Shown: positions 11,619-38,031 of the stretch, in pieces
How positions within the stretch are numbered: position 1 is the stretch's first letter
Layout of the letters: each line of letters begins with the position of its first letter
NCBI RefSeq assembly: GCF_014204835.1
Contig: NZ_JACHMD010000001.1
Coordinates: forward strand, 2,976,001-3,040,000
Length of the DNA: 64,000 nucleotides
Direction of reading: 5' to 3'
From: Microbacterium marinum
GTDB lineage: Bacteria > Actinomycetota > Actinomycetes > Actinomycetales > Microbacteriaceae
Made by a program: the position numbers and the translations under genes
The notes under the pieces: model-generated
Seen by the model: the letters and a program-made list of their open reading frames with translations, nothing else
Told to the model about the DNA's origin: nothing
Databases searched by the model: none

Positions 11619-11716
11619 TCCCAGTGTTTTCAGGGGATACCGGGCCAAGAAGTTCTGCGGAGACGGCGGGATTTGAACCCTCGGTCCCCTTACAGGGACT
11701 CCACCTGGCAGGGTGG
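11619..11716 (-). repeat. Decayed tRNA-Ser(GCT) 3' fragment, putative att site (left)
   Basis: On the minus strand this matches the tRNA-Ser(GCT) gene at 37940-38031 from the anticodon arm to the acceptor 3' strand. The T-arm block GAGGGTTCAAATCCC is identical. The match runs about 40 bp past the tRNA end, where TCCCAGTGTTT and a following CA-GGGA block (read on the plus strand) are shared. The anticodon loop has lost one base and the CCA is mutated. The 5' half of a tRNA is missing, so it cannot be functional. The copy at 37906-38002 is in the same orientation, as expected for the displaced 3' fragment left by an element that integrated into the tRNA gene. Confidence 0.8.
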
Positions 11717-11730
11717 AGCCCTGCGGGTAC

Positions 11731-14565
11731 TCACCGTCGCGTGAGGCGCTCGAGTACTTCGATCACGTGCTCATATGGCCGGTCGGTCGCGCGGCTCATG
11801 CCGATCTCGCACGTGCGGTTGGCCGACACGTACGCATCGAAGCCACCGAGATCGTCCGCCGCTGCCGCGACCTCGAACGCCTCCACGTCGGTCGCACTCG
11901 CGGTGAGCTCGGGGTGCAGCATCCCTCGGTCGCCGGCGAAGGCGCAGCATCCCCACCCTTCGGGGACGAAGACGGTGTCGGCCACGGCATACGCCAGCGC
12001 CGTGAGCGCGCCGGTGGCACCGAGCGCGGTGGTCGAGCATGTCGGGTGCACGGCGATGCGGTCGAGCTTGGCCGATACCTCCACTTTCGGGAGCACCTCG
12101 CGCGCCACGTAGGTCGTCGCGTCTTCGATCACCAGGGACGCGTACTCCGGATGCGCGGCTGCGGCCTTGGCGAGCATGACATGGAGTCCCTCGGTGCAGG
12201 ATGCCGCATCGCACACGACCGGGAGCTCGCCGCCACGACTGGCGCTCCAGAGCAAGGAGAGCACGCGGTCGGTCATCCGGTCATATCCGGACAGGTACCC
12301 CTTCGACTTCCAGGGCGTCCCGCAGCAGAGCCCACCAGCATCCTGCGGGACGACGAAAGGGATGTCGGCGCGCGACAGTAGCTCGCGCAGGGCGTCCCTC
12401 GAGCCGATTCCGTGATCCTCCGGGCCGAACATCGTGCCGATGCACGCGCCGAACAGCACGACCTCGGCGTCCGCCGGGCTGTCCGCCCGAAGCGGCTTCG
12501 ATCCGCCACCCGGCAGCCCCGCGTCATACAGGGGAACGATGTCGGCACCGAGCACGGCGCGTCCAACCTTGGTCACCCCGGTGACGAGCGGTGCAGGAAG
12601 CGCATCGGCCACGGTGAGCGCGAGTCCGCCGGCGCGCGCGGCCGCTCTCCACCCCTTGGCGGCGACATCCCAGAGGCCGTCCGCGACGGACGACGCCTGC
12701 TCGGCGCGCAGCCGCCGCACGAGGTCACCGGTATTGATGTCGACGGGGCAAGCGACACCGCACATGCCGTCGACCGCGCATGTCTGCACACCGTCGTAGT
12801 CGTAATCGACGCGGAGCTCCTTCACGAGCTCAGTGTCACCCTGCTCCTCCGCCCAGGCCATGTCGCGGCGGAGCACGATCCGCTGCCGCGGGGTGAGCGT
12901 GAGGCTCTTGCTGGGGCAGGTCGGCTCGCAGTACCCGCATTCGACGCAGCGGTCGACCTCCTTCTCGACGGTTGGCACGCGCTTGAGGTCCTTCAGGTAC
13001 GACTCCGGATCCTCCGACAGCACGACTCCCGGATTCAGAATGCCGTCGGGGTCGAGCAGCTTCTTGATGCCCCACATGAGGTCGGTGAGCTCGTCGCCGT
13101 ACTGGCGCCGCACGAACGGCGCCATGATGCGGCCGGTGCCGTGCTCTGCCTTGAGCGACCCCTGCTGACCGAGCACGAGCTCGACGAGGTCGTCCGTGAA
13201 GCGCCGGTAGCGCGCGATGCTGTCGGCATCGTCGAAGCGCTCGTTCAGGAGGAAGTGCACGTTGCCGTCCTTGGCGTGTCCGAAGATCACCGAGCCGTCG
13301 TACCCGTGCTCCTCGAACAGCTCGATCAGCCGCTCGCACGTGAACAGCAGACGGTCCACCGGCACGACGATGTCCTCCAGCAGCGCGGTCGTGCCGGACG
13401 GGCGCGCACCCGCGACCGCCGTATAAAGACCCTTGCGGACGTGCCAGAGCGCCGCGCGTTCCGCAGCATCCGTCGTGAGCCCGGCCTCGACGACCAGCGG
13501 AAGGGCGCGCATGTGCGACAGCACGATGTCGGCGCCGTGCACGAGAGCATCCGCGTCCGCCGCGTGCACCTCGACGAGGAGCGCCGCATGCTGATCCACC
13601 GGGATGTCGGCGATCGCGCGCGGCACGTCGCTGAGCCCCTGCGCGACGCGCAGCGAGGCGGCATCCAGCAGTTCGATCGTTGCGAGCCCGAGCTCGACGA
13701 GCCGGGGGAGGGCGGCCATGGCGTCCGACAGCGTCTCGAACACGAGCAGACCGGTCGCGATCGCCGGGCGCACCTCGATCGTGCGGAACCTCGCCTCTGC
13801 GACGAAGGCTAGCGTGCCCTCAGAGCCGATGACGAGGTGCTCAAGGATCTTCACCGGGTCGTCGAAGTCGAGCAGCGCGTTGATGCCGTAACCCATCGTG
13901 TTCTTCATCGAGAACTGCCGGCGCACGAACTCGACGCGCTCCGGCGAGGCGAGCAGCCGCTCCCGCAGGGCGAGCAGTCCCTCCGCGATCGCCGGCTCGA
14001 CGGCGGTCAGCGTCTCGATCGCGTCGGGAGCACCGGTGTCGAGGACGGTTCCGCTGGGCAGCACGAGTAGCAGCGACTCGACGGTGCGGTAGGAGTTCTC
14101 CACGGTGCCGCAGGCCATGCCGCTGGAGTTGTTCGCGATCACACCGCCGATCGTGCAGGCGATCTCGCTGGCCGGATCCGGACCGAGCTTGCGACCGAAA
14201 CGCGCGAGGCGCGTGTTGACCTGGCGCACGGTCGCACCCGGACCGACTCGGACGATGCGCGCGTCATCCTCGACCGCGATGTTCCGGAACGCGCTGCGAG
14301 TGTCGACGAGGATGTCCCCGCTCACCCCCTGGCCGGACAGGCTCGTGCCTCCCGAGCGGAACGTCAGCGTACGGCCGGCCGCGCGGACCGCGCGGAAGAC
14401 ATCCGCCACATCGGATGCCGAGGACGGCGAGAGCACGGCGTCAGGGACCAGGAGGTAGTGCGAGGCGTCATGAGCCTGCGCGAACCGATCGATCGACCGA
14501 TCCTTCACCTCGGTCGAGGGCGACAGGAGTGCGCGATCCAGCGGGAAGGTGAGCGACGTCCGCAC
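11731..14565 (-). CDS. FAD- and Fe-S-binding oxidoreductase, probable D-lactate dehydrogenase
   Basis: A 944-residue fusion. The N-terminal half is a PCMH-type FAD domain (RSGGTSLSGQ, GPGATVRQVN) with the FAD-oxidase C-terminal domain that binds 2-hydroxyacids. Around residues 520-640 come Fe-S motifs (CVECGYCEPTCPSKS; CAVDGMCGVACPVD). The last third carries CCG-type cysteines (GGLCCG, GWGCCAF). This layout is that of respiratory D-lactate or glycolate dehydrogenases of actinobacteria, passing electrons to quinone. GTG 14565 is chosen because GAGGAGGA lies just upstream; the longer TTG start has no such support. A divergent FCD-type GntR gene and an LldR-like operator (14591-14601) support lactate as substrate. 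Confidence 0.85.
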   Translation of the reverse strand: MRTSLTFPLDRALLSPSTEVKDRSIDRFAQAHDASHYLLVPDAVLSPSSASDVADVFRAVRAAGRTLTFRSGGTSLSGQGVSGDILVDTRSAFRNIAVEDDARIVRVGPGATVRQVNTRLARFGRKLGPDPASEIACTIGGVIANNSSGMACGTVENSYRTVESLLLVLPSGTVLDTGAPDAIETLTAVEPAIAEGLLALRERLLASPERVEFVRRQFSMKNTMGYGINALLDFDDPVKILEHLVIGSEGTLAFVAEARFRTIEVRPAIATGLLVFETLSDAMAALPRLVELGLATIELLDAASLRVAQGLSDVPRAIADIPVDQHAALLVEVHAADADALVHGADIVLSHMRALPLVVEAGLTTDAAERAALWHVRKGLYTAVAGARPSGTTALLEDIVVPVDRLLFTCERLIELFEEHGYDGSVIFGHAKDGNVHFLLNERFDDADSIARYRRFTDDLVELVLGQQGSLKAEHGTGRIMAPFVRRQYGDELTDLMWGIKKLLDPDGILNPGVVLSEDPESYLKDLKRVPTVEKEVDRCVECGYCEPTCPSKSLTLTPRQRIVLRRDMAWAEEQGDTELVKELRVDYDYDGVQTCAVDGMCGVACPVDINTGDLVRRLRAEQASSVADGLWDVAAKGWRAAARAGGLALTVADALPAPLVTGVTKVGRAVLGADIVPLYDAGLPGGGSKPLRADSPADAEVVLFGACIGTMFGPEDHGIGSRDALRELLSRADIPFVVPQDAGGLCCGTPWKSKGYLSGYDRMTDRVLSLLWSASRGGELPVVCDAASCTEGLHVMLAKAAAAHPEYASLVIEDATTYVAREVLPKVEVSAKLDRIAVHPTCSTTALGATGALTALAYAVADTVFVPEGWGCCAFAGDRGMLHPELTASATDVEAFEVAAAADDLGGFDAYVSANRTCEIGMSRATDRPYEHVIEVLERLTRR

Positions 14566-14590
14566 GGATCCTCCTCGACGGCGACGTGAA

Positions 14591-14601
14591 TTGTCTGACA
14601 A
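14591..14601. promoter_or_regulatory. LldR-like operator between the lactate dehydrogenase and GntR genes
   Basis: TTGTCTGACAA is a perfect inverted repeat (TTGTC/GACAA around one T). It fits TNGTNNNACNA, the consensus reported for the lactate regulator LldR of Corynebacterium glutamicum. It touches a minus-strand TATACT (14606-14601), a plausible -10 box for the oxidoreductase gene, so bound regulator would block that promoter. Confidence 0.7.
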
Positions 14602-14626
14602 GTATACCGCTGGATCGGGCGATCGC

Positions 14627-14632
14627 TAGACT
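14627..14632 (+). promoter_or_regulatory. -10 box TAGACT for the leaderless GntR gene
   Basis: TAGACT ends 7 nt before the GntR ATG at 14640, leaving no room for a ribosome site. Transcription would start at or next to the initiation codon. Confidence 0.5.
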
Positions 14633-14639
14633 TGAGCGC

Positions 14640-15308
14640 ATGGCAGCGATCCCGGAGGCAGCACTGGACGTCGTCGGCGTGGTCGACGCCGTGACCGCAC
14701 GGCTGCGGACCCGCATCCTCGCGGGCGAGATCCGCTCGGGGGAACCGCTCACCGAGGCGGCGGTGTCCCAGGCCTACGGAGTCGCCCGCCCCAGCGCCAA
14801 GGCCGCGATCGAGCAGCTCGTCGCGGCGGGACTGCTCGTGCGCATCGCGCACCGCACCGCGCGGGTGGTCGACATCGATTCGGCGACCGTGCACGATGTG
14901 TATCGCACGCGGGCGCGGCTCGAGAGCGCGGCCCTGCGTGAGCTCTCGGCCTCTCGCACGATCCCGGCATCAGCGATCGCCGCGAACGCCGAGATCCAGG
15001 CAATGCCCCCGGGGCCGAGCGCCGAGACGGTCGACCCCGACCTGCGCTTCCACACCGCGCTCATCGACGCGCTCGGCAGCGAGCGCACCGCCCGCATGTA
15101 CCGCAGCGTGCTCGACGAGGTCCGACTGTGCATGGCTCAAGTGCAGGAGCGGCGGCTGCTCGGGGCCTCCGTCATCGCCCGACAGCATGCCGAGATCCTG
15201 GATGCCGTGCAGGTCGGCGATTCGGATCTCGCCGCCCGCCTGCTCGATGAGCACCTGCACTCGGCGGCGGAAAGCCTCATCAGCGCGCTGACCACACCAG
15301 GCCCGTAA
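14640..15308 (+). CDS. GntR-family regulator with FCD domain (LldR-like)
   Basis: A 222-residue regulator. The winged helix-turn-helix covers about residues 10-75 (VTARLRTRILAGEIRSGEPL..AVSQAYGVARPSAKAAIEQL). The FCD ligand domain covers about residues 85-215, with metal-binding Asp/His positions suggested by DPDLRFHTALI and ARQHAEIL. FCD regulators respond to small carboxylates. It is divergent from the lactate-dehydrogenase-like gene, with an LldR-type operator between them, so it probably represses that gene in the absence of lactate. ATG 14640 has no ribosome site, but TAGACT (14627-14632) ends 7 nt before it, indicating a leaderless mRNA. Confidence 0.85.
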   Translation: MAAIPEAALDVVGVVDAVTARLRTRILAGEIRSGEPLTEAAVSQAYGVARPSAKAAIEQLVAAGLLVRIAHRTARVVDIDSATVHDVYRTRARLESAALRELSASRTIPASAIAANAEIQAMPPGPSAETVDPDLRFHTALIDALGSERTARMYRSVLDEVRLCMAQVQERRLLGASVIARQHAEILDAVQVGDSDLAARLLDEHLHSAAESLISALTTPGP

Positions 15309-15634: not shown

Positions 15635-18253
15635 ATGGCCATCGACTTCTCAAGACGAACCCTGCTCATCGGCATGGGAGCGGTCGTCACGACATCCGTC
15701 CTCGGCAACTTCGGAGCGCCCATGTCGGCGGCTGCAGCCGCCGACCCTACGACATGGACCGACATCGTCGGCAGGTTCGAGTCCCGGCATGAGCCGTGGT
15801 CGGTGTCATTCGGCCCCGAGTACGGAACCGCAGCAGGTGGATTCGTGCGAGATGAGGAGCGTGCCGCCGAGGGCGCTTTCTCGGGGCGGCTTACGGCGGA
15901 CTTCTCGGAATCCGGACGGTATGTGGCGCTGATCAAGTCACTGGACCACCTGGATATCACGAAGGTCCGATTCAAGGTCACCGCTCGCAATGTCACTCGC
16001 GTCGCCGTCCGACTCGTCAGCGGAGGGCGAGTCCTCAGGCAGGCGTATGCCGCCGTGCAGCCCACGCCCGGAACGTGGGTCGGTGTCGAGATGGACAGGT
16101 GGAACAACATCGTCGGGTTCTCCGACGCGGTCACACTCCAGATCCAAGTCTGGAAGGAGCACCTCGCCAACGCCGCAGACCCGACGGGTGACCTCTGGGT
16201 CGACGACGTGCAGGTCGATCACCTCGTGCAAGAGCAGAGGCCTGCATCCCTCGAGACCTCGGGTCTGCCGGTGCTGCTGGTGGGCGACGCCGACCCGGTT
16301 CCCCTCACGGTGCGGGCCACGTACCCCGACCGCGAAGCGCGTGACGTCACACAGCACTCCAGACTGAGCTCCTCGAACAACGCGGTGATCACGATCGACA
16401 GGTTCGGCACCCTCGCGCCGGTGGCCCCGGGGCGGGCCGAGATCCGCATCGAGCATCTCGGCGTCTCACAGGCGTTCCTTGTCGAGGTCCGCGCGCCGCG
16501 CGAACTGACGCCGATAACGATCCATGACGGCAAGTTCCGGGATCGCGACTCTCCGTTCGGGTTCACCGGCTTCAACTACGATCTGTTCCTTCTCAGCTAT
16601 CCGCGTCGTGCGCTGTGGTCGAGCCTCGATGCCGACATCAGCCTCATGGCCAGCTGGGGACTGGGTGCCATCCGAGTGCCACTCGCCGTGAGCCTGGTGC
16701 AACCGGCGAAGGGCGTCTTCCCCGGCGACGTCGGGTGGGCGGGTGAGTTGCGCAAACGCGGGCTGAACACCGAGTTCATCAAGATGCTTGACCATTTCGT
16801 CGCACGTGCCGGCGAGCACGGCATCCGCGTGATCTTCGACTGGCACCGCTTTCCCACCGACCCCTACGACTACTGGCAGGGAGGCACGCCCGCCGATCGC
16901 GGAACAGGGAAGCCGGGGACGGCCATCTCCTACCTCGCTCCTTCGTCCACGCAGAGCGGTGAACTCGACCTGGCGGATGCTGAGCACCGCACCGTGCTGT
17001 TCGAATCCCTCACGTGGATCGCTTCTCACTACAAGGGGTCACCGAACGTCCTCGGTATCGAGGTCCCGCACAACGAGCCGCACGCGGCATACATGTCGAT
17101 TCAGTCGAACTGGCGGCGACTGACGGAGCAAGCATCCTTGGCGGTGAAGGCGGGCGACCCAGATCGCCTGACCTTCGCGATGCCTCCCGCCTACGGGCAC
17201 GACGTCTCCACCGCGGCGCCGACGTGGCAGTTCTCGAACGTGGTGGACGCGAATGCGCCTCATCACTATCTGCCCAATGCGCCGGTGCCGACGCGCCCCG
17301 ACGCCCCGACGCGCCATTCGCCGTGGCTGGCCCGTGACATCGACGCGACCTTCGCTTACGCCATTCCAGCGCTGTTCGCCCCGTACTCGACGTCGAAGCA
17401 TCCGGTCTACAACGGTGAGGGCGGTCACTATGGCTTCGACTCCTTCCTGCCCGACATGGATCGCGTCCAGGCGGCGGACTACATGATGGAGGCGGGCCTG
17501 GTGCAGTACTACGCAGCGGGTGCCGCCGGGCAGCTGCACTGGAGCCTCTGGCACAACCTCAACGACTTCGTGCCCTTTGAGGATCTGTTCGAAAAGCACT
17601 ATCGCCGTTTCTCGGCCGTATATTCGGCTGGTCCTGTCGACTGGTCTGGCGCCGAGGTCGCATTCATCCAGAATCCCGCAGCAGTGCCGCCCGCTAACGG
17701 GCACAACTTCGCCGTCGTTCCCTTCGTCCGCCGTGCGCTCGACCTGCACCTGCCGATCTGGCATCTGCTGACGGACGACGAGATCATCGAGACGCTGCTC
17801 ACCCAAGTGCCATCCGGACTGGAACAGGTGGAGGGAATGGACGCGGCCTTCGACTACAAGGCGGTCGTCGCGGACCGCCGGAATCTCGACCAGCGCGTGC
17901 GGCAGGTGCTCGAACGGGACGGCTTCGACAGGCCCATCCTCTGGCTGAACGACGCGGAGGCCCTCACCACCAACGCCTTGGGCTCCTTCCTCCGCAAGGC
18001 GGGAGTCGCCGAGGATCGCCGGACGAGCGCGCACCTGCAGCTCGTGTACGGTCCTCAGCACCTCGTGGTCTATCGCCGCAGCGGCGCCGGTGGCAAGAAG
18101 CGCATCTTTCCCCGCGTTCGCCGGGATGGGGTGTTCTCTCTCGTGGATGAGTCCGGCGAGACGCGGTACCGGGGGGATGCGAACACGCTGTGGACCCGCG
18201 GCATCTCCATCGACCTGCCGAAGTGGCGCAGCGCGATCCTGCGGATCGAGTGA
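15635..18253 (+). CDS. Tat-exported multidomain glycoside hydrolase, GH5-like
   Basis: An 872-residue secreted enzyme. The Tat signal SRRTLLIG is followed by a hydrophobic segment and Ala-rich cleavage region near residue 36. Residues about 40-195 look like a carbohydrate-binding beta-sandwich, 210-290 like a bacterial Ig-like (Big2) domain and 300-640 a clan GH-A TIM barrel. The probable acid/base is E481 (HNEPH) and the nucleophile E595 (NGEGGHY). The last 230 residues resemble the flavodoxin-like and beta-rich tail of GH42-type enzymes. The substrate cannot be read from sequence; cellulase/mannanase-like folds are possible. An operator and promoter lie upstream and a long inverted repeat follows the stop. 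GGAGA precedes the ATG. Confidence 0.8.
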   Translation: MAIDFSRRTLLIGMGAVVTTSVLGNFGAPMSAAAAADPTTWTDIVGRFESRHEPWSVSFGPEYGTAAGGFVRDEERAAEGAFSGRLTADFSESGRYVALIKSLDHLDITKVRFKVTARNVTRVAVRLVSGGRVLRQAYAAVQPTPGTWVGVEMDRWNNIVGFSDAVTLQIQVWKEHLANAADPTGDLWVDDVQVDHLVQEQRPASLETSGLPVLLVGDADPVPLTVRATYPDREARDVTQHSRLSSSNNAVITIDRFGTLAPVAPGRAEIRIEHLGVSQAFLVEVRAPRELTPITIHDGKFRDRDSPFGFTGFNYDLFLLSYPRRALWSSLDADISLMASWGLGAIRVPLAVSLVQPAKGVFPGDVGWAGELRKRGLNTEFIKMLDHFVARAGEHGIRVIFDWHRFPTDPYDYWQGGTPADRGTGKPGTAISYLAPSSTQSGELDLADAEHRTVLFESLTWIASHYKGSPNVLGIEVPHNEPHAAYMSIQSNWRRLTEQASLAVKAGDPDRLTFAMPPAYGHDVSTAAPTWQFSNVVDANAPHHYLPNAPVPTRPDAPTRHSPWLARDIDATFAYAIPALFAPYSTSKHPVYNGEGGHYGFDSFLPDMDRVQAADYMMEAGLVQYYAAGAAGQLHWSLWHNLNDFVPFEDLFEKHYRRFSAVYSAGPVDWSGAEVAFIQNPAAVPPANGHNFAVVPFVRRALDLHLPIWHLLTDDEIIETLLTQVPSGLEQVEGMDAAFDYKAVVADRRNLDQRVRQVLERDGFDRPILWLNDAEALTTNALGSFLRKAGVAEDRRTSAHLQLVYGPQHLVVYRRSGAGGKKRIFPRVRRDGVFSLVDESGETRYRGDANTLWTRGISIDLPKWRSAILRIE

Positions 18254-18260
18254 TCGCGAA

Positions 18261-18302
18261 CTGTGGATCCGCGGTTCGATATGCCGAATCGCGGATCCAC
18301 AG
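18261..18302. repeat. 18-bp-arm inverted repeat containing operator copy 2
   Basis: Arms start CTGTGGATCCGCG and end CGCGGATCCACAG, pairing over 18 bp with one G-T wobble around a 6-nt loop. It begins 8 bp after the GH5-like stop and could terminate that transcript, though no T-run follows. Its centre, GTTCGATATGCCGAAT (18274-18289), differs by one base from the site before the IclR gene (25543-25558), so it is probably also the operator for the sugar-acid operon. Confidence 0.7.
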
Positions 18303-18374
18303 ATTGAATCTGGCGAGAAAGCCCACTACGTTGTCCTATTCAAGGAGTCAGCACGGATGCAGCAGGGAGCCGGC

Positions 18375-19469
18375 ATGCGCATCACCAAGGTCGTCACAGC
18401 CGTCGCGCCCTTCACCCGCGGAACGAGCCTGGATGACACCCGCATCTCCACGCCCATGGGAGTGTTCCCCCGCCATGCGGAACGACGGTCGTCATGGCGC
18501 GGCCCCGGCGCCGATCTCATCTGGGTGCTCGTGCGCACGGATGACAGCGAGGTCTGGGGCATCGGACAGTCCCGCGGTGGTCGTGTCACAGAGGCACTGA
18601 TCCTCGAACACCTCGCCGGCCTGCTGCATGGCCGGGATCCACTGGCCATCTCGGAACGAGTGGCCGAGCTGGACCGGGCCACCCAGCCGTATGCTGCCGG
18701 CGGCATCGCCTCGATGGGGATCGCCGCCGTGGAGCTCGCGCTGTGGGACCTTGCCGCACGGGCGGCGGGACTCCCGCTCGTGCGCCTGCTGGGCGGATCG
18801 GAATCGGATGTTCCCTATTACCTCACGGTCCCGGATCACTCGCTGTTCGACGTCCTCGAGCCCGAGCTGATCGCCAGGGCTCGAACCGTGAAGATCCCCG
18901 CCCGGTTCGGCCCGGCCGACGGCCGGTCGGCGATCACGCGCGTGATCGCCGACCTCGAGGCCACGCGCGAGCGCGTCCCTGAGCATGTGCCGCTCTCCAT
19001 CGACTGCTTCATGTCGTGGGATGCCGAGTTCGCCAGGCGTGTCGTCCACTGTGCCTCGGATCTCGGTCTGGACTGGATCGAGGAGCCACTGCACCCGCTC
19101 GACGTCGACGGGCATCGGATGCTGCGGACGACGTTGCCGGCGCGAGTGGCGTCAGGCGAGCATGTCTTCACACTGCGCGAAGGGCGTCGCCTGGTGGAGG
19201 CGGGTTGCGTGGATGTCGCGCAGTTCGACGTCACGTGGTGCGGAGGACTCGAAGTCGCCCGGACTCTGGGTCGGCAGGCCGTCGACGCGGGGATGCTGTT
19301 CGCACCGCACGCTGCAGGCCTGCAGCCCTGGGCTACGCACCTGGTGAACGCGTTCGGGCCCGGTGCATGGCTCGAGGTGCTCGTCGGTGTCGATGGCACT
19401 GCAGAGGTGCCCACGGTCCGCGACGGTCCGGGCGTCGGGATCGACCCCGCGCAGGTCGGCCTCGCATGA
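18375..19469 (+). CDS. Enolase-superfamily sugar-acid dehydratase, L-rhamnonate-dehydratase-like
   Basis: A 364-residue mandelate-racemase-type enolase that would dehydrate a sugar acid to a 2-keto-3-deoxy acid. Magnesium ligands are D210 (SIDCFMSWD), E236 (WIEEPL) and E262 (SGEHVF). H312 in APHAAG is the general base, and K173 lies on the earlier strand. The DCFMSWD and GEH blocks resemble L-rhamnonate dehydratase more than other groups; the precise substrate (rhamnonate, fuconate or a related acid) is inference. A start at 18357 with AGGAG 10 nt upstream is also possible; MRITKV at 18375 is the usual family beginning and has GGGAG upstream. The stop overlaps the next start (ATGA). Confidence 0.85.
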   Translation: MRITKVVTAVAPFTRGTSLDDTRISTPMGVFPRHAERRSSWRGPGADLIWVLVRTDDSEVWGIGQSRGGRVTEALILEHLAGLLHGRDPLAISERVAELDRATQPYAAGGIASMGIAAVELALWDLAARAAGLPLVRLLGGSESDVPYYLTVPDHSLFDVLEPELIARARTVKIPARFGPADGRSAITRVIADLEATRERVPEHVPLSIDCFMSWDAEFARRVVHCASDLGLDWIEEPLHPLDVDGHRMLRTTLPARVASGEHVFTLREGRRLVEAGCVDVAQFDVTWCGGLEVARTLGRQAVDAGMLFAPHAAGLQPWATHLVNAFGPGAWLEVLVGVDGTAEVPTVRDGPGVGIDPAQVGLA

Positions 19470-26854: not shown

Positions 26855-26899
26855 CCGTCCTGCACGACCCGAGTTACCAATCATCCAATGGAGGATCGC

Positions 26900-29133: not shown

Positions 29134-29138
29134 GTACC

Positions 29139-30008: not shown

Positions 30009-31162
30009 GCGCGCTCGTCCCCATCGCGTCCACGACGCACCAGCCGGTGCGCGTGGGTGACGGCCGCAACCTCTCGGACGGCACGACGCAGACCCTCAGC
30101 ACGCTGTTCACGCACGAGCTGCTGAGGCCCGCCGACAGCATCCGGCTCGTCTTCGCGAACTGGTACGACACCGACGGCGACAGCCTGCCCGGTACCGACC
30201 CGATCCGGGTCCGTGCCGAGGTGCGGGCGGGCGGCATCCTGCCGGTGACGTTCGACGGACGCGATCACGTCAGGATCGAACCAGGAGAGACCGTGCTGTC
30301 CGACCCCGTGCCGCTCGATCCGCACGGCGGTGTGGGGACGGATCGGATGCGACTGTCGACCTGCACGGTCGTCTCAGTGGCGCGAGGCGGGCGGTTCCCG
30401 CTCGGTTCGAGCACAGACGCCTCCTCGGGGGAAGGGGTCGCGGTGGGAGACCTTCGCGGCCGGGCCGTGCCCACGGCATCCGTCTACGGATACGGGCCGT
30501 GGCAGCTGCTCGCCGAGGGACCGACTGCAGGGTCGCTGCTGCTCGTGGTGGGCGACTCGAACGGGGTCGGCTTCGGCGACCGCCGAGGCGGCGCCGAGCA
30601 CTTCGGCTGGGTGCGCCGCCGGTTCGACGGACGCAGCGATGTGATGAACATCTCGGTCAGCGGCGCGCGTCTCGAGAACAGCATGACACCGGCGCAGCTG
30701 GCGCTGCGGCTGGCGCAGGTGCAGTGGTCGTTGCCGACCGCCGTGATCACGGCGCTCGGCACGAATGACATCCGTTGCGGGGGGCCGGGGGTCGAGGAGG
30801 TGCGAGAGCGGATGCTAAATCACTGGGGCGTGCTGGCCACCGTTGCGCCGCGCCTGATCGCGACCACGGTGCCGCCCGCGACGACGAGCATCGACGGCTG
30901 GCACACGCTCGAGGGGCAGCGGCTCGATCACGGCAATGACACCCGCCTCATCATCAACGACTGGCTGCGGACCGTTCCCGCCCCGCTCGACGCCGTGTTC
31001 GATCTCGCCGCAGCCGTCGAGGCCGAGCCCGGGCTGTGGCGGCCCCGTCTCACAGAGGACGGTGTCCACCCCAGCCCTGAGGGTCACGCGGCGATCGCCG
31101 AGGCGGCGCGCGAGTTCGTGTTCGAGGCGGCGGTCGTCGAAGAGAGCCGTCAGCTCACCTGA
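30005..31162 (+). CDS. SGNH/GDSL hydrolase, probable carbohydrate esterase
   Basis: A 385-residue two-domain protein without a signal peptide. Residues 1-165 are strand-rich (a jelly-roll-like domain). Residues about 175-380 are an SGNH hydrolase. VVGDSNGVG is block I with the nucleophile serine, ALGTNDIR is block III, and EDGVHPSPEGH is block V with the Asp/His pair. SGNH enzymes of this layout deacylate sugars. Being last in the import operon and coupled to the permease, it probably removes acetyl or similar groups from the imported oligosaccharide inside the cell. Confidence 0.85.
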   Translation: MSALVPIASTTHQPVRVGDGRNLSDGTTQTLSTLFTHELLRPADSIRLVFANWYDTDGDSLPGTDPIRVRAEVRAGGILPVTFDGRDHVRIEPGETVLSDPVPLDPHGGVGTDRMRLSTCTVVSVARGGRFPLGSSTDASSGEGVAVGDLRGRAVPTASVYGYGPWQLLAEGPTAGSLLLVVGDSNGVGFGDRRGGAEHFGWVRRRFDGRSDVMNISVSGARLENSMTPAQLALRLAQVQWSLPTAVITALGTNDIRCGGPGVEEVRERMLNHWGVLATVAPRLIATTVPPATTSIDGWHTLEGQRLDHGNDTRLIINDWLRTVPAPLDAVFDLAAAVEAEPGLWRPRLTEDGVHPSPEGHAAIAEAAREFVFEAAVVEESRQLT

Positions 31163-31305: not shown

Positions 31306-32190
31306 TCAGCGCGGTACCGCGGTGGAATCGCGGACGATCAGCACCGGGGGGTCAGCCTCGATGACGGTGCGCGCTCCGCCTTCGGCGAGCCGCAGCAGGG
31401 TCCGGGCAGACAGTTGGCCGAATGCATGGATGTCACGGCTCATGGCAGTCAGCGGCGGGCGGGTGATGCGGCAGAGCACGGAATCGTCGCCGGCCAGCAC
31501 GGCGACATTTTCGGGGATGCGTACGCCGCGCGCGGTGAGACCCTCGACGGCACCTGCGGCCATCACATCGTTGTCGAACGTGATCGCCGTCGGGGCGCCG
31601 TCGACGTCCAGCAACTCGTTGACGGCGGCCGCACCGCCCTCCCGCGAGAAGTCGGCACTGACCACCGACGGTGAGCCGCCCGCGTCGACCACGGCTGAAA
31701 GAAACGCCGCCGTCCTTCTTTGGGTATGCGAAAATCCGGCGGGACCGGCGACTCTGCCGATGCGCCGGTGGCCAAGCGCGACGAGGTGGTCGACGGCCCC
31801 CTGAATCACCGCAGACTCGTCAGTCCACAACACGGCATGGCCACCGGCGTCGTCGGGATGTGCAAGCGCCAGAGCTGTGAAACCGAGTTCGTCGACGAGC
31901 TCCAGCCGCGGGTCGTCTGGGACGAGCACGTCGACCAGCAGGACCGCGCTGACCCGGCCGCTTTCGTGCCAGCGGTGATAGGCATCGAGTTCAGATGACA
32001 TATCGGGCACGACCTGCAGGATGAGTGCCCAGTCGTGCGCAGTGAGCACGTCTTCGAGGCCTGCCATGAAGTCGTTGTAGAAGGCCTCGATCCCCAGCGT
32101 CCTCACCGACCGGCGCAGCACGAGCCCGACCGCCGTCCGCTCCCGGTCAGCGGCGCTCCTCGTCCTCGTGATCATGCTCAGCAGTATCAC
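31306..32190 (-). CDS. LacI-like sensor protein lacking its DNA-binding domain
   Basis: A 294-residue protein matching the periplasmic-binding-protein-like ligand domain of LacI regulators (AVGLVL at the usual domain start; GAPTAITFDNDVMAAGAVEGL; VAVLAGDDS; LTAMSRDIHAFGQLSA). The roughly 60-residue N-terminal helix-turn-helix and hinge that LacI proteins need are absent. The DNA upstream codes for the end of the beta-mannosidase, so there is no hidden HTH exon or frameshift. GTG 32190 overlaps the beta-mannosidase stop (GTGA); ATG 32175 is an alternative. It is either a regulator that lost its head by deletion or a free sugar-sensing protein. Confidence 0.75.
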   Translation of the reverse strand: MILLSMITRTRSAADRERTAVGLVLRRSVRTLGIEAFYNDFMAGLEDVLTAHDWALILQVVPDMSSELDAYHRWHESGRVSAVLLVDVLVPDDPRLELVDELGFTALALAHPDDAGGHAVLWTDESAVIQGAVDHLVALGHRRIGRVAGPAGFSHTQRRTAAFLSAVVDAGGSPSVVSADFSREGGAAAVNELLDVDGAPTAITFDNDVMAAGAVEGLTARGVRIPENVAVLAGDDSVLCRITRPPLTAMSRDIHAFGQLSARTLLRLAEGGARTVIEADPPVLIVRDSTAVPR

Positions 32191-34652
32191 GCATTCCGCG
32201 GATCGCAGAGATCGTTCGCCGAGCGCAGCACCCTCGGATCCGTGAACGCCGCGGGTTCCAGGCCGGGCCGGGCCTGAACCCGGATCTCCGCGACCTCGCC
32301 CGGCAGCAGTGTGAGCAGCCCGTCTTGGGCCCGGGCCCCGGCATCCACTTTGTCGGCGAGGACCGTCAGATCCTTGACCAGACTCCGAGCCTCGACGCGG
32401 ACCGCGTACCCGCCAGGCACCTCTGTCGCGGACGCAGCGACGGCGTCCGACTGCAGAAGGAGTGCAGGGTCTTCGGCGAAATACCAGAATGCCCGCTCGC
32501 CACTGTCTGCGATCACGGCGGCGAACTCGGCGGAAGAGTCGGCGACGGATGCGATGGATGCGGGAACGGTGATCACTGTCGCGCTGCGGGCATCGACCTC
32601 GACGGGCATTCGCTCCTGGGCGAGTATCTCGCCGAGGAGCGAGCGGCGTGTCAGTGTCACGGTCGTCGACAGGGCTTCCGCGGCGTCGTTGTGCAGCACC
32701 GCAACCAGAGCCCCTTCGCGGGGCTGAATCGTCAGCAGCCGGTCGGCGTAGACGCGTCGGAGCGCGTGCCAGAGCGGCTTGCGATGGCGCATGCTGTCGA
32801 CGGCCGCCCAGGACACGACGGGCCAGCAGTCGTTCAGCTGCCAGACGATCGATCCGCGGTTCAACGGGAACAGCGACCGGAAATGCTCGATACCGTAGGC
32901 CACCGCCCGCGCCTGATTCAGCTGCATCGTCCAGTGCCAGTCCTCGTAAGAGTCCGGCTGCGGCAGGTGCTCGCCGAGGCCGCGCTGCAGCTTGCCGTTG
33001 CCGTCATCGGCCTTCTGATGCACGAGCATGTTCGGACCGAAAGGATCGCGCGGCTCGTCGTGTACGGCGTACTCCAGGGTTGACCAGGCGGGCGGCCCCT
33101 GGAAGCCGAACTCCGACACGAACCGCGGCCGGTAGTCGCGATAGTGGGTGTAGTCGACGCGGTTCCACACGTCCCAGATGTGCATGGTGCCGTGCGCATC
33201 GTCGTTGGGGTGCACGTAGCGGCTGAACGAGAACGGGCTGCCCTCGGAGTAGGGCGTGTTCGGCGCGAGCTGCCGGACGATGCGAGGAAACAGATCGATG
33301 TAATACCCCTCGCCCCAGGTCATGGCACCCAGCTGCGAGCGCCAGTTCCAATCGATGTAGCCCCAGATGTTCTCATTGCCGCCGTTCCACACCACGAGAC
33401 TCGGATGCGCGGTGAGTCGGGTCACGGCCTCGACGGCCTCGGCTTCGAACTCCGACCACAGCGCGTCGTCCTCCGCATAGGCTGCGCAGGCGAGCAGGAA
33501 GTCCTGCCAGACGAGGATGCCGTTCTCGTCGCAGAGATCGTAGAAGTCCTCCGACTCGTAGATGCCCCCTCCCCAGACCCGCAGCATGTTCATGTTCGAC
33601 TCGAGGGCATCGGTGATGCTCTTCTGCAGCGTGTCGCGAGTGATGCGCGGGAAGAACACGTCGTCCGGGATCCAGTTCGCGCCGCGGATGTAGACGTCCT
33701 CACCGTTGACGATGATGCGGAACGCGCTGCCCTGCTCGTCGGGCGCGACGTCGATCTCGACGCTGCGGAACCCGATCCGGCGGGTCCAATGGGACAGCTC
33801 GTCGCCTGTTTCGCTCAGCAGGCGCACGTCGAGCTCGTGACGGGTCTGCTCGCCGTAGCCACGCGGCCACCACAGGGCGGCGCCGGGCGCGTCGATCGTT
33901 GTGGATGCAGAGGTCTGCCCGGGGCCGAGGGCCACGAGCGCCGTCTGACCCGCCACCTCGACCGCGAGCTCCGCGCCGGCTGCGGGCTCGGTGTCAGCCC
34001 ACTCGACGTCGACATGGACGGTCACGGTCGGCACCCCGTCGATGACGTCGACAAGGGGACGCACCGCGGCGATCCGCGCGCCGGACCAGGAGTGGATGCC
34101 GATCGGCTTCCAGATCCCGACCGAGGCGAGGTCGGGACCCCAGTCCCAGCCGAAGTTGCATGCGGCCTTGCGCATGGCGTTGAAGGGGTTCTCGTACGAG
34201 TGCGGACGCTTGCCGAGCAGATCCTCCTGCTCGCGTGCGTAGGCATACGGTGAGCGGAACGTGATCACGATGTCATTGCAGCCTGGGCGCAGCAGCTCTG
34301 CGACGGGGAGCCGATAGCTGCGGTGCTGGTTGACGGTGCGAGCAACGGTGACGCCGTTGAGCTCGACGTGGGCGACGGTGTCGAGACCCTCTGCGACGAG
34401 GTCGACGCGGGTGTCGCCCGTGTCGGACCAGTCGAAGCTCGTGCGGTACTCCCAATCGCTCTCGCCGATCCAGCGCAGCGATGCCTCGGCGTCGTCGACG
34501 AAAGGATCCGTGATGAGCCCGGCCGCGAGCAGATCGGTGTGCACCACTCCGGGGACTTCGGCCGGCACGGCATCCAGGCGGCTCGCCAGGTCATCCGGTG
34601 CCTCGCCCGTGACGAGACGGACAGTCCAGCCGGTGGCCAGGTCATGATGCAT
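32187..34652 (-). CDS. GH2 beta-mannosidase
   Basis: An 821-residue cytoplasmic glycoside hydrolase family 2 enzyme of the beta-mannosidase type. The order is an N-terminal sugar-binding jelly roll (WEYRTSFDW), an Ig-like domain, the TIM barrel and C-terminal beta domains. The acid/base is E427 in NGGNEN and the nucleophile is E514 in SEFGFQG. NGGNEN rather than NEP-type contexts, together with the WGGGIYE block, favours mannosidase over galactosidase or glucuronidase. It would release mannose from the non-reducing end of imported oligosaccharides. GAGGAG precedes the ATG. It is divergent from a ROK regulator and coupled to the LacI-like gene. Confidence 0.88.
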   Translation of the reverse strand: MHHDLATGWTVRLVTGEAPDDLASRLDAVPAEVPGVVHTDLLAAGLITDPFVDDAEASLRWIGESDWEYRTSFDWSDTGDTRVDLVAEGLDTVAHVELNGVTVARTVNQHRSYRLPVAELLRPGCNDIVITFRSPYAYAREQEDLLGKRPHSYENPFNAMRKAACNFGWDWGPDLASVGIWKPIGIHSWSGARIAAVRPLVDVIDGVPTVTVHVDVEWADTEPAAGAELAVEVAGQTALVALGPGQTSASTTIDAPGAALWWPRGYGEQTRHELDVRLLSETGDELSHWTRRIGFRSVEIDVAPDEQGSAFRIIVNGEDVYIRGANWIPDDVFFPRITRDTLQKSITDALESNMNMLRVWGGGIYESEDFYDLCDENGILVWQDFLLACAAYAEDDALWSEFEAEAVEAVTRLTAHPSLVVWNGGNENIWGYIDWNWRSQLGAMTWGEGYYIDLFPRIVRQLAPNTPYSEGSPFSFSRYVHPNDDAHGTMHIWDVWNRVDYTHYRDYRPRFVSEFGFQGPPAWSTLEYAVHDEPRDPFGPNMLVHQKADDGNGKLQRGLGEHLPQPDSYEDWHWTMQLNQARAVAYGIEHFRSLFPLNRGSIVWQLNDCWPVVSWAAVDSMRHRKPLWHALRRVYADRLLTIQPREGALVAVLHNDAAEALSTTVTLTRRSLLGEILAQERMPVEVDARSATVITVPASIASVADSSAEFAAVIADSGERAFWYFAEDPALLLQSDAVAASATEVPGGYAVRVEARSLVKDLTVLADKVDAGARAQDGLLTLLPGEVAEIRVQARPGLEPAAFTDPRVLRSANDLCDPRNA

Positions 34653-34693
34653 GGTGGTTCTCCTCGTCGGGAATATGGGCCGACTCTAGTGGA

Positions 34694-34703
34694 CTTTATA
34701 AAG
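34694..34703. promoter_or_regulatory. Palindrome CTTTATAAAG between beta-mannosidase and ROK genes
   Basis: A perfect 10-bp palindrome in an unusually AT-rich patch of the 146-bp divergent gap. ROK-family regulators bind AT-rich palindromes, so this is a reasonable operator for the adjacent ROK gene. Confidence 0.5.
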
Positions 34704-34798
34704 CAAGTGAAATTAGTCACTCATGCAGTGCGCTCACCGCCGTGTGCGATCGATACACTGAGCGTCGCCCCCCCGTCGGCAGGCGTGAAGGGAAGTGC

Positions 34799-35998
34799 AT
34801 GATCAAGGCGTCCGATGCGGTCCGCGCACAACGTACGAACACGCGTGGACTCATCCTTGAAGCGATCCGCACACGCGGCCCGATCAGCCGAGGCGAGCTG
34901 GCCGAGGCGACGGGCCTCACTGCTGCGACGATGACCAATGTCGTCCGCCGGCTGCTCGAGGACGGCCTCGTCCTCGAGACCGGAAGGGGGGAATCGACGG
35001 GCGGCAAGCGCCGCGTGCTGCTGGAGGTCGACGCGGGCGCGCGCTTCGGCGTCGGGATCCAGCTGGGATTCGGCTCGACCGTGCTCGTGGTGTCGAACAT
35101 GTGGGGAGCCGTGGTCGGCCGGTCGCGCATGGCCGGCATCGGCCGGGCGCATCCTGACGAGTACATCGAGCGCCTCGCCATAGGCCTTCTGGACCTCATC
35201 GACTCGCTGGGGCTGGACCGTGATCTCGTCGTTGGCGCGGGCGTCGCCGTGCCTGGTTCGTTCGACGGGTTCAGACAGTCGCCGGACACCCAGGAACTTC
35301 TCGAAGCGTGGGCATCCTTCCCCCTGCAGGACCGGCTCGTCGAGTACACCGCCGTGGACGCCGTCGCGGAGTGCGAGGCGATCGCGGCGGCGATCGGCGA
35401 GCGGTGGAGCGGGGCCGTAGCCGACTCGGAGGCTTTCGCCGTCATCCTCATGGAAGATGCGATCGGTGTGGGCGCCGTGCTGCAGGGTCGCACGCTGCGC
35501 GGTGCGCACGGTCACGCGGGCGACCTCGGTCACATGCTCATCGACCCCGCCGGTCCCTCCTGTACGTGCGGAGCCAGAGGGTGCCTTGTCGCGGTGGCAG
35601 GACCGGCTGCTTCACTGCGCCGCTACAGCTCCGCGGTCGGCCGGCAGGTTAGTGCCGCACGCCTCAACGCTGCGGCAGTGGCAGGCGATCCCGTCGCGGT
35701 GTCCGCGCTCGCGCCATCGGTGAATGCATTCGCAACCGCGGCCGCGAGCATGACCGACATGCTGGATCTGGAGCGGATCGTGTTGGCCGGTACCGGATTC
35801 GGCAGCGCGATGTCGCTGTTCATCACCGGCATCCAGACTGCTCTCGACGAGCGATCGCGCCGCCGGGGCAGGCCACCGGTGATCGTCCAGGCGTCCGTCA
35901 GCGTCCGCGACGCTCCGGCGCTCGGCGCCGCAGCACTTGTGCTGCACGAGGAGATGATCGGCGTGGGCATGCCGCCGGGCATCGTCGCGGCGCGCTGA
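34799..35998 (+). CDS. ROK-family transcriptional regulator
   Basis: A 399-residue NagC/XylR-type regulator. The winged helix-turn-helix is at residues 28-57 (PISRGELAEATGLTAATMTNVV). The sugar-kinase-like ROK domain follows, with the zinc motif CTCGARGC (C255, C257, C262) and HAGDLGHM before it. The ATP-binding part looks degraded, as usual in regulators. It is divergent from the beta-mannosidase and probably represses it, responding to a sugar. ATG 34799 has GAAGGGA 6 nt upstream. Confidence 0.9.
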   Translation: MIKASDAVRAQRTNTRGLILEAIRTRGPISRGELAEATGLTAATMTNVVRRLLEDGLVLETGRGESTGGKRRVLLEVDAGARFGVGIQLGFGSTVLVVSNMWGAVVGRSRMAGIGRAHPDEYIERLAIGLLDLIDSLGLDRDLVVGAGVAVPGSFDGFRQSPDTQELLEAWASFPLQDRLVEYTAVDAVAECEAIAAAIGERWSGAVADSEAFAVILMEDAIGVGAVLQGRTLRGAHGHAGDLGHMLIDPAGPSCTCGARGCLVAVAGPAASLRRYSSAVGRQVSAARLNAAAVAGDPVAVSALAPSVNAFATAAASMTDMLDLERIVLAGTGFGSAMSLFITGIQTALDERSRRRGRPPVIVQASVSVRDAPALGAAALVLHEEMIGVGMPPGIVAAR

Positions 35999-36055
35999 TA
36001 GACGCTGCTGCTGCCGGTAGGACGAGGGCGTGGACAGCGCGCGGCTGCGGATCGG

Positions 36056-37375
36056 TCACACGAGGGGAGCGGCGTCGCGTTGCGGCTTCGCTTTCGCCGC
36101 GCTTCTGGGCGTCCCGGCATGCTTGGCTCTCACGCTCATCCACTGCGCGCGCTCGTCACGCGGAAACTTCTCGATGGCGTAGCGCAGAGTCGTGCGCGGC
36201 ATCGAGGCAGCGTGCCGGTCGAGGAATGCCACCAGGACTGGCGGGTCTACCTCGCCGATCGAGCGCAGCATCCAGCCCGTCGCTTTGCGTATGAGGTCGT
36301 GCGGATCGTCGACCAGGATCTCGGCGATCGCCACGGCGTCGTGGGCCTGGCCGGCCCGGATGAAGGCCCAGCAGCTCACCATGGCTGTTCGGCGTTCCCA
36401 GACATTCGCCGAGCGCGCCAGCCGGTACAGGATGTCTCGTGGCTTGTCCATCAGGTACCCTCCGACCACCCATCGGCAGGCGAGATCGACCAGGTCCCAG
36501 TTGTTGATCCGGTCATGGCGTCGGAGATACAGCTCGAAGAGCTCGGCACGCCGGGCCTCGACGGTCCGCGCCCGGGAGGCCTCCTGATGCATGATGCTCA
36601 GAGCCGTGGTCCTCACCTCGTGATAGGGACTCTCGAGCAGGCGCTCGAGCTCGGCCACCGGCAGCCCGAGGTTCTCCTTCGCGATCGCAGACACGGTGCT
36701 CAGATGCAGGCCGAGGAATCGATCGCCCTCGCCGTACTCACCCGGACCTGTCTTAAAGTACCTGGCCAGGCCCGCCGCTTCGACCGGCGACGCGTGCGCC
36801 CGTAGCGCCGCGACGATCTCATCTGCGTCGGTGTGGTGCGTGAGCCCCGCGAACCCGGCGACGCCCTCGCGACGGCGGGTCCACAGCGCCATATCGAGGC
36901 AGTCGAGCACAAGCGGGGTGGTCATGCTCGTGGCGGCGCGCCAGCCGAGGATGCGGCGGGAGTGCGCGTCGAACACGAACGCGACGTAGACCCATCCGGA
37001 CCACGTCCAGACGTAGGTGAAATCGGCTACCCAGAGCTGGTAGGTGCGGAACCGCCAGAAGTGGCGGGCGACGAGGTCAGCCGGCCTGCTCTCCCGAAGC
37101 GCCGTGTCGACGGGACGCTTGCGTTTCCCGCGGACCACACCCGCGATCCCGAGCTCCCGCATCAGCCGTTCGACCGTGCAGCGGGCGATGTCATGCCCGT
37201 CGCGCCGCAACCGGAGCCAGAGCTTGCGGGCGCCGAACACCTTCCGCTGCTTCTCCCAGGTGCCGAGGATGATCGGCTTCCACCGCTCATCCGACACCTC
37301 ACGAGGCGACGGACCGCAACCGCGAGCGTCGTAGTAGGTCGATGGGGCGATCTTCACGCCGTGCTGCGTGAGCAC
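36056..37375 (-). CDS. Chimera: IS3 OrfB N-terminal part fused to AlkD-like DNA glycosylase
   Basis: A 439-residue open frame made of two unrelated parts. Residues 1-184 are an IS3-family OrfB: the HTH_21 region and the first part of the rve integrase core, with catalytic D118 (VADFTYV) and D183 (HHTDA) but no third acidic residue, so it cannot transpose. From residue 185 (position 36823) the frame continues as an AlkD-like DNA alkylation repair protein (DEIVAALRAHA; YFKTGPGEYGEGDRFLG; NNWDLVDL with W293/D294/D297; HDLIRKATGWMLRSIG). Only its first few residues seem replaced. The start given is a GTG; the frame runs on to about 37450 and is normally reached by frameshifting from OrfA. Whether the repair half is active is unknown. 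Confidence 0.85.
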   Translation of the reverse strand: MLTQHGVKIAPSTYYDARGCGPSPREVSDERWKPIILGTWEKQRKVFGARKLWLRLRRDGHDIARCTVERLMRELGIAGVVRGKRKRPVDTALRESRPADLVARHFWRFRTYQLWVADFTYVWTWSGWVYVAFVFDAHSRRILGWRAATSMTTPLVLDCLDMALWTRRREGVAGFAGLTHHTDADEIVAALRAHASPVEAAGLARYFKTGPGEYGEGDRFLGLHLSTVSAIAKENLGLPVAELERLLESPYHEVRTTALSIMHQEASRARTVEARRAELFELYLRRHDRINNWDLVDLACRWVVGGYLMDKPRDILYRLARSANVWERRTAMVSCWAFIRAGQAHDAVAIAEILVDDPHDLIRKATGWMLRSIGEVDPPVLVAFLDRHAASMPRTTLRYAIEKFPRDERAQWMSVRAKHAGTPRSAAKAKPQRDAAPLV

Positions 37376-37850
37376 GTCGCAGATCGACTCGACACCCCAC
37401 CGCAGACCACCGTCGCGACGGTCCTTGTGGTCCTCGATGAACGTGACTATCGCTTCTGTGGCCGGTCGAGTTCGGCCGCGAAGAAAGCCGAGGCCGCCTT
37501 CAGAATCTCGTTGGCGCGCCGTAGTTCGGCGTTCTCCCGCTTGAGTCGCTTGATCGCCTCCGCGGCCTCGGTTGTGACGCCGGGCCGTTCGCCGGCGTCG
37601 ACCTGGTTGCGGCGGATCCAGGTCCGGATCGTCTCCGGGGACCCGATGCCGAGCATCTGCGCAGTCGCGGTCATCGCCGCGTACTCGCTCGGATAGTCGG
37701 GCCGCAGCTCGGCGACCATACGGACTGCGCGCTCACGAAGCTCGCGCGGATACTTACAGGGACGTCCCATGAGACAGATCCATCCAAGGAATCATGTCTC
37801 CGGACGCGCCGGGGCGAGTCAGAGACTTCGCACAAAGCTCTGACTCCACG
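36824..37850 (-). mobile_element. IS3-family insertion sequence, truncated at its left end
   Basis: It contains OrfA, the frameshift junction and the first part of OrfB. The OrfB C-terminus with the last catalytic glutamate and the left terminal repeat are missing, replaced by the AlkD-like coding sequence at 36823. On the right, GAGTCAGAG (37816-37824) and CTCTGACTC (37838-37846) form an inverted repeat near the expected end of the element. The exact right end is uncertain. Confidence 0.7.
37447..37770 (-). CDS. IS3-family transposase OrfA
   Basis: A 107-residue IS3-type OrfA. The N-terminal helix-turn-helix (residues about 8-60; GRPCKYPRELRERAVRMV, GIGSPETIRTWIRR) recognises the element ends. 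A leucine-zipper-like coiled coil follows (IKRLKRENAELRRANEILKAA). It ends DRPQKR, where the OrfB frame overlaps, as in elements that make the transposase by -1 frameshifting. Because OrfB is truncated, no active transposase can be produced here; OrfA alone may act as a repressor. Confidence 0.92.
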   Translation of the reverse strand: MGRPCKYPRELRERAVRMVAELRPDYPSEYAAMTATAQMLGIGSPETIRTWIRRNQVDAGERPGVTTEAAEAIKRLKRENAELRRANEILKAASAFFAAELDRPQKR

Positions 37851-37905
37851 GTCTTACACAATCCCTACGCAAAACCGAACTCTATGCGAAAGCCATGGCC
37901 CGCGA

Positions 37906-38002
37906 TCCCAGTGTTTCCAAGGGAGGGCCGGGGCATTAATGGCGGAGACGGAGGGATTTGAACCCTCGGTCCCCGTGAGGGGACTCCACCTTAGCAGGGT
38001 GG
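37906..38002 (-). repeat. Right direct repeat (intact tRNA-Ser side of putative att)
   Basis: This segment covers the 3' part of tRNA-Ser(GCT) and about 35 bp of its downstream flank. It matches the left copy at 11619-11716 in the same orientation, including TCCCAGTGTTT beyond the tRNA end. The two copies bound about 26 kb. Confidence 0.75.
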
Positions 38003-38031
38003 TGCACTAGGCCTGACTATGCGACGTCTCC
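37940..38031 (-). tRNA. tRNA-Ser (anticodon GCT)
   Basis: A complete class II tRNA with long variable arm. The acceptor GGAGACG pairs with CGTCTCC, the anticodon loop is CTGCTAA within CCACC/GGTGG, the variable stem is TCCCC/GGGGA and the T-arm contains GGTTCAAATCC. CCA is encoded at 37942-37940. It reads AGC/AGU serine codons. Its 3' end coincides with the edge of the proposed island. Confidence 0.95.

Follow-up and report, generated by a model that had tools for sequence, protein, structure and literature searches.

Remnant of a probably serially used integration site at the tRNA-Ser(GCT) gene of Microbacterium marinum

How did a 26-kb block of catabolic genes come to lie between an intact serine tRNA gene and a decayed copy of its 3' part? 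The question is raised by a stretch of the Microbacterium marinum genome. The window analysed here is this whole stretch of 64,000 nucleotides (contig NZ_JACHMD010000001.1, positions 2,976,001 to 3,040,000), and unprefixed coordinates refer to it. Our preferred answer, to which we give a probability of about 64%, is that the 3' end of tRNA-Ser(GCT) is an integration hotspot that was used serially, and that the block now sits grounded in it. The block is a remnant of a tRNA-targeted tyrosine-recombinase island and not a functional member of that class. As a grounded tRNA-Ser(GCT) integration remnant, it is ordinary in kind.

The two ends of the block are marked by direct repeats (Table 1). When positions 37840-38060 are searched against the window with BLASTN, the repeats align at 79% identity over 106 columns (E 6e-19), and the second-best match has an E value of 0.13. 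In the whole single-contig genome of 3.12 Mb there are three matches: both repeat copies and a 44-bp stretch (E 2.6e-5) that forms the 3' end of an intact tRNA-Ser(CGA). The right copy lies in tRNA-Ser(GCT), whose 3' end is directed into the block. The left copy spans the tRNA from anticodon arm to 3' end in the same orientation, and the similarity of both copies extends about 33 bp beyond the tRNA 3' end. A pair of co-oriented direct repeats, of which one lies within the 3' end of an intact tRNA and the other is a 3' fragment, is among the features that define tRNA-targeted islands. An earlier sequence-only reading of this DNA had recognised the two repeats, the right one in a functional tRNA-Ser(GCT) and the left one a decayed 3' portion, and ARAGORN, Rfam and the BLASTN match bear it out.

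The sequence past the tRNA is most likely the P' arm of a left attachment site (attL), judging by other tRNA-Ser(GCT) loci of the genus, and not part of a long attachment (att) core. The locus in genome G018 matches at 86.6% over 194 bp, tRNA included, and the arm is recognisable to position 37854; the last 31 bp or so (37823-37853) have no match there. In G101, G089 and G037, a tyrosine recombinase of 366-370 aa (73-81% mutual identity) ends 178-202 bp from the tRNA 3' end and is accompanied by a partner gene of 212-220 aa. A more distant integrase (48-51%) is located 55 bp from the tRNA in G022. These four elements and the window have the same target, the same motif (see below) and the same P'-side arm-pair architecture. 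The first three retain integrase and partner gene and G022 retains the integrase, whereas the window shows neither; cargo was compared only by BLASTP to the window open reading frames (ORFs). The window and integrase-bearing elements at the same tRNA thus have a P' arm in common, with the motif about 20 bp past the tRNA 3' end, although the arm pair of the window is weak (7/9). Together with the repeat anatomy, this likeness upholds the earlier proposal of site-specific integration at the tRNA-Ser 3' end. The similarity beyond the tRNA had been attributed either to a longer att core or to an older tandem tRNA duplication. The long core was dropped in favour of a P' arm on the strength of the integrase-bearing loci and the right attachment sites (attR) described below, and duplication is retained as a rival.

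Both repeat copies contain an 18-bp motif, CCCYTGNAAACACYGGGA. A total of 61 sites carry it, spread over 48 of 198 genus genomes, and the reversed pattern occurs at none in the same 198. The window genome has two sites in 3.12 Mb, and these are the two block ends. Best matches to a tRNA query, which matched 194 of the 198 genomes (among the matches listed), gave 29 tRNA-Ser(GCT) loci in other genomes. In six of these (G018, G101, G067, G190 and G037, with G069 as the variant), an imperfect inverted repeat after the tRNA surrounds CCCTTGnAAACACTGGGA or a variant sequence; 22 lack this arrangement, including those of the close relatives G112, G015, G120 and G056, and one is cut by its contig end. 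G089 and G022 also carry the inverted repeat or motif after this tRNA. The motif therefore follows tRNA-Ser(GCT) in nine genomes, that of the window included, with G069 again as a variant. A related integrase lies within 1 kb in four of the nine (G022, G037, G089 and G101) and in none of the other five, to which the window belongs. In G037 (L054 1167-1240) the motif is oriented opposite to that of the other tRNA-Ser(GCT) elements read, and both orientations occur across loci.

The motif is not confined to one tRNA. Thirteen of 20 further sites are near an intact tRNA found by ARAGORN, five adjoin, by eye, a tRNA- or tmRNA-like 3' end or fragment, and two do neither. When the genus and the named contigs are pooled, 63 sites (53 distinct sequences) fall 4-31 bp from a tRNA 3' end, 46 of them at 17-22 bp. 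The partners are tRNAs for Ser (50), Met (4), Thr (4), Lys (3), Val (1) and Pro (1). Most of these loci, like those behind the neighbour and arm-pair counts below, were chosen because they contain the motif or its surroundings, so that their closeness to tRNAs is informative but not that of a random sample. The commonest neighbour is a tyrosine recombinase, present at 32 of 99 loci at a median distance of 263 bp; some elements are represented by two of these loci. The integrase partner gene was considered as owner of the motif and rejected, since it clusters at 8 of the 99 loci versus the 32 with an integrase. Among the matches listed, the motif stands beside tRNAs in records named Microbacterium, Cryobacterium, Leifsonia, Leucobacter and Brevibacterium; we estimate that most matches outside Actinobacteria are due to chance. 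Phage and plasmid searches with the motif returned no known att site, and literature searches by topic and by three motif pieces returned no description of it, by title, among the matches listed.

Beyond the motif, many arms carry a pair of short repeats. Pairs of 9-mers that are at least 8/9 identical and 9-14 bp apart are found in 30 of 53 distinct arms, compared to 114 of 1060 random stretches of the same loci, and the spacing is 11 in 18 of the 25 arms among those listed. We take this motif-plus-pair layout to be the anatomy expected of arm-type integrase sites, as in lambda-like systems. The stems pair in register at 0.64, against 0.39-0.48 when slid by 1-2 (53 windows). An element defined by structure alone was rejected because the Thr-tRNA and Arthrobacter sites have no stem but retain the motif, which occurs in either orientation; a role in protein binding seems more likely than a purely structural one. 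A native tRNA terminator bearing the motif was also set aside, since eight relatives without att remnants show ordinary terminators and the motif was not found in the 23-43 kb examined of each of all nine relatives. A native tRNA-like stem after the oxidoreductase gene was likewise not seen by eye in 12 genomes.

Which end of the block is which can be judged from attR sites. In those of G022 (L049:16925) and G089 (L207:15480), some 25 bp of the tRNA 3' end lead into an ordinary terminator and the motif is absent. Because the left copy bears the motif and these two sites do not, the left copy is unlikely to be a simple attR, as the sequence-only reading had it, and would instead be an older attL made internal by a later integration. 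It carries a tRNA 3' fragment together with P'-side sequence, the combination looked for in tandem accretion. At least two successive integrations are therefore the more likely history. In the proposed scheme, an older element would have integrated and left the tRNA with its P' arm. A later element whose attachment architecture was the same would have re-entered the tRNA and rebuilt its 3' end, such that the older attL, cut in its 5' half, was displaced to the far side of the block. An insertion sequence (IS) of the IS3 family, with an accompanying deletion, would then have removed the integrase and grounded the block, and its cargo may have been reshuffled afterwards. Little of the older element would remain, given that the conserved flank (DUF1304) starts 219 bp past the left copy.

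Serial use of this same tRNA can be seen elsewhere in the genus. In G173, an intact tRNA is accompanied by two fragments and two related integrases, one integrase next to the tRNA and the other 1.7 kb past the first fragment. In G095, a single additional tRNA 3' fragment lies some 150 bp from a related integrase. In G112, two clear fragments (L034 10149 and 17575) and a weaker one (near 10343) stand at this tRNA, and no related integrase accompanies them. Serial tRNA fragments are shown here for Microbacterium. In G018 (L050), the tRNA and motif are followed by about 12 kb that include an ABC-ATPase-like gene and then by a related integrase without a tRNA fragment, a layout that parallels the window.

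Comparable histories have been described in other bacteria. PMC3218068 reports tandem actinomycete integrative and conjugative elements (AICEs) in Frankia at tRNA-Lys and in Streptomyces avermitilis at tRNA-Arg, along with integration at probable tRNA remnants, and its references name the tandem accretion of ICESt1-related elements in Streptococcus thermophilus. These systems and, probably, the window are alike in successive integrations at one site. Unlike them, the window block has no recognised integrase, replication or transfer gene, and its older element would be a stub. Grounded prophages and islands are remnants of integrated elements whose cargo stays (PMC6379469). The window resembles them in its retained cargo and differs in having no phage gene recognised by Pfam.

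The block has probably lost its means of movement. All seven PF00589 matches in the genome fall outside the window, and neither an integrase gene nor a relic of one is found beside the tRNA, where a truncated IS3 element stands instead. This agrees with the earlier statement that no integrase remains and that a broken IS3 occupies the expected spot, which PF00589 and tblastn searches and the Pfam IS3 domains confirm. One end of the IS3 remnant (about 37822) directly abuts the P' arm, and the other side is cut at about 36825 within the rve domain. It is likely, from this placement, that IS insertion plus deletion caused the loss of the integrase. The reading frame that crosses the cut possibly encodes a chimeric protein (Table 1). 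Pfam detects no phage gene among the block ORFs scanned and no relaxase, conjugation or replication gene among 28 ORFs scanned between positions 5.5 and 40.8 kb, a set that covers the small ORFs in part.

Relatives that share the flanks carry other genes at this site. The DUF1304 and Gfo/Idh genes of the left flank are matched over nearly the whole 1.4-kb query in at least 10 of 366 genus genomes, the window genome included, and in part in at least six more. In nine relatives, the tRNA and the left flank are on one contig. Between tRNA and DUF1304 lie 4.1 kb in G318, 8.0 in G015, 11.7 in G243, 11.8 in G216, 15.1 in both G242 and G347, 17.4 in G120, 17.6 in G112 and 18.7 in G056, compared to 26.5 kb in the window. 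A common gene set (TetR, fasciclin, LacI, ABC transporter, GH32 and others, as named from G120) is represented by overlapping subsets in eight of the nine, and in the same eight an ordinary terminator follows the tRNA. The window shares none of this set; G112 shares one distant GH32-like gene (50-52%). The motif was not found in the 23-43 kb examined of each of the nine, even with two substitutions allowed. A seven-ORF tree places the window and G112 outside the other eight (99), with a weak root (69) and short or missing rows, especially for G113 and G109. By these comparisons, the content of the tRNA-Ser(GCT) site varies throughout the clade.

The block itself looks like a mosaic of parts with separate distributions. 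Its halves (11731-25540 and 25541-36820) were searched against 198 genomes, with two candidates scored per genome. The longest foreign match to the block is at most 3.6 kb in the 197 other genomes (best scored matches among the matches listed). Among the same matches, about 30 genomes carry the oxidoreductase and GntR pair at other loci (74-78%), the GH2 stretch is matched many times elsewhere and the region from 15.3 to 21.3 kb has no DNA match. At E 1e-30 the first half is unmatched in G112, G015, G120 and G056. The GC content is 68.2% in the block versus 69.2 and 70.6% in the flanks, and the tetranucleotide correlation is lowest (0.44) at 15-20 kb, a mild difference measured against a reference that includes the flanks. 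With no match longer than 3.6 kb and with parts that are separately distributed, the earlier idea that the block arrived as one unit cannot be shown.

A number of observations weigh against a serially used and grounded integration site. The best window match to seven proteins in tblastn (five of one integrase family and two unrelated) has an E value of 0.28, so the relic integrase that the sequence-only reading suggested looking for near the tRNA did not appear. The right-hand pair has the usual offset and a spacing of 11, but 7/9 is the best score in 422 of 1060 controls too, and the 9-mer pair scan finds no arm-type pair beyond the left motif. Stem folding relative to shuffles gives z -0.8 for the right copy and 0.0 for the left, compared to -4.8 for the G101 copy. 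There is no third tRNA-Ser(GCT) copy in the genome at E 0.001 and hence no further attR beyond the older element, nor is any remnant of a second or older element recognised left of 11619. No P arm is visible at the left copy, where the oxidoreductase stop codon comes 8 bp from the repeat. An attR is available for two of the four integrase-bearing elements, none having been found for G101 (about 80 kb examined) or G037 (to the contig end). The P' arms of the G173, G095 and G112 arrays lack the motif, which makes these arrays parallels and not elements of the same type. The left copy begins at the anticodon arm and junction fragments elsewhere begin at the T-loop, so that its 5' edge may stem from another integrase, a deletion or a duplication. 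Finally, the empty site that was expected to join 11.6 to 38.0 kb exists in none of the nine flank-sharing relatives, whose gaps of 4.1-18.7 kb are filled with other genes.

Some of these points suit other explanations. A single integration with a long att core, running from the anticodon arm through the motif, would make the right copy a simple attL and the left copy its attR, and it fits the order and orientation of two copies that both consist of the tRNA 3' part and the motif. The absence of the motif from the two readable attR sites (G022 and G089) and from the stretches of the nine relatives makes this unlikely, as do junction fragments elsewhere that are, by eye, about 25 bp and not 100. 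The greater length of tRNA in the left copy than in integrase junctions read elsewhere would be accounted for if the tRNA and downstream arm had been duplicated as a segment, through an IS or illegitimate recombination, and had then decayed while ordinary gene turnover, not an integrase, filled the block. The broken IS3, the lack of a P arm at 11723-11730 and a gap content that differs between the window and all nine relatives are in keeping with this history. We nevertheless hold it to be distinctly improbable, since the P' arm of the right copy still requires an integrase element and tandem integrations with integrases are found at the same tRNA in G173 and G095. Descent of the block as native genus content, with repeats that are due to chance or to an old tRNA array, would agree with the wide occurrence of the oxidoreductase pair and GH2 gene in the genus and with the block's near-flank GC content. 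It is hardly credible given the repeat match at E 6e-19, the different genes at the site in nine flank-sharing relatives and the four searched relatives that lack the first block half.

What the motif does may extend beyond this locus. In Arthrobacter and its relatives, it is seen by eye on the opposite side of the core, some 9 bp away from a tRNA-like 3' fragment. Pseudarthrobacter GA104 has four such loci (L079, L080, L134 and L175), and others are present in the Arthrobacter group, including L085; their repetition suggests a family of repeated att remnants. One tentative interpretation, which we regard as doubtful, is that the motif binds a host protein (DNA-bending or accessory) and is a shared component of the attachment sites of tyrosine-recombinase elements in Micrococcales, at any tRNA. 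In Microbacteriaceae it would stand on the P' side, in Arthrobacter relatives on the P side. Its role would be like that of integration host factor (IHF) sites in lambda, and it would mark a fossil attL. Against such a factor stand the lack of a related integrase near the Arthrobacter-group motif sites, the reading of the tRNA fragments there by eye only, and the weakness of the phage match (E 0.4 and 0.02).

Islands without an integrase are hard to prove. Here the att-site signature itself survives and identifies the event. It comprises a tRNA 3' end, the motif and, at many loci, a pair of arm-type sites spaced by roughly one helical turn. The motif and arm layout could be used to find grounded islands independently of an integrase, and the motif may point to an unnamed shared factor in recombination complexes. 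This architecture, as a shared integrase-independent signature in Micrococcales, may be the new part of the present findings. For the window genome, the outcome is a set of sugar and lactate catabolism genes at a site that differs in content from that of nine relatives.

Table 1. Features of the block and its borders in the window
Feature	Coordinates	Strand	Basis
Left flank: DUF1304 and Gfo/Idh genes, syntenic in nine relatives	10014..11400	-	Pfam, synteny
Left copy: decayed tRNA-Ser 3' part and motif, read as probable older attL (attR/attL junction)	11619..11722	-	BLASTN, motif alignment
Motif, left copy	11619..11636	-	One of two genome copies
FAD/4Fe-4S oxidoreductase (D-lactate dehydrogenase-like), stop 8 bp from left copy	11731..14601	-	ORF and Pfam
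GntR/FCD regulator	14586..15308	+	Pfam
GH5-like glycosidase, enolase-superfamily enzyme, amidohydrolase, Gfo/Idh oxidoreductase, FAA hydrolase	15635..22157	+	Pfam
833-aa ORF without Pfam match and IclR regulator	22266..25533	-	Pfam
Alcohol dehydrogenase, solute-binding protein, ABC permease, GDSL hydrolase	25763..31162	+	Pfam
LacI-type sensor domain, GH2 glycosidase, ROK regulator	31306..35998		Pfam
Possible chimeric ORF: N-terminal part of IS3 OrfB in frame with DNA alkylation repair (AlkD-like) domain	36056..37375	-	Pfam
Truncated IS3-family element, one end and OrfB end missing	36825..37822	-	Pfam HTH_Tnp_1, HTH_21, partial rve; ends from copy at C1:850582
Probable P' arm of attL left by integrated element	37823..37939	-	Similarity to G018 and alignment with integrase-bearing loci
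Candidate arm-type pair TTGCGTAGG / TTGTGTAAG, 11 bp apart, 7/9 identical	37853..37872	-	9-mer pair scan
Motif CCCYTGNAAACACYGGGA, right copy	37906..37923	-	One of two genome copies
Right repeat copy: tRNA anticodon arm to 3' end and motif	37906..38008	-	BLASTN
tRNA-Ser(GCT), intact, probable integration target	37940..38031	-	ARAGORN; Rfam (37943-38031)
Right flank: LytR-CpsA-Psr gene, beside tRNA in relatives read	38098..39441	-	Pfam, synteny

A second serine tRNA (TGA) is located at 39461-39546, 1.4 kb to the right of tRNA-Ser(GCT) with the LytR gene between them, and the pair is kept in five relatives and in G109. A contig filed as Stenotrophomonas maltophilia P13 (L103) contains a Microbacterium-like tRNA 3' end with the motif, perhaps through contamination. 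The phage match mentioned above is in Microbacterium phage DizzyRudy (51552-51572; L260 3001-3021), where the motif falls in an intergenic, repeat-rich stretch near recombination-type genes that is perhaps an origin or control region.

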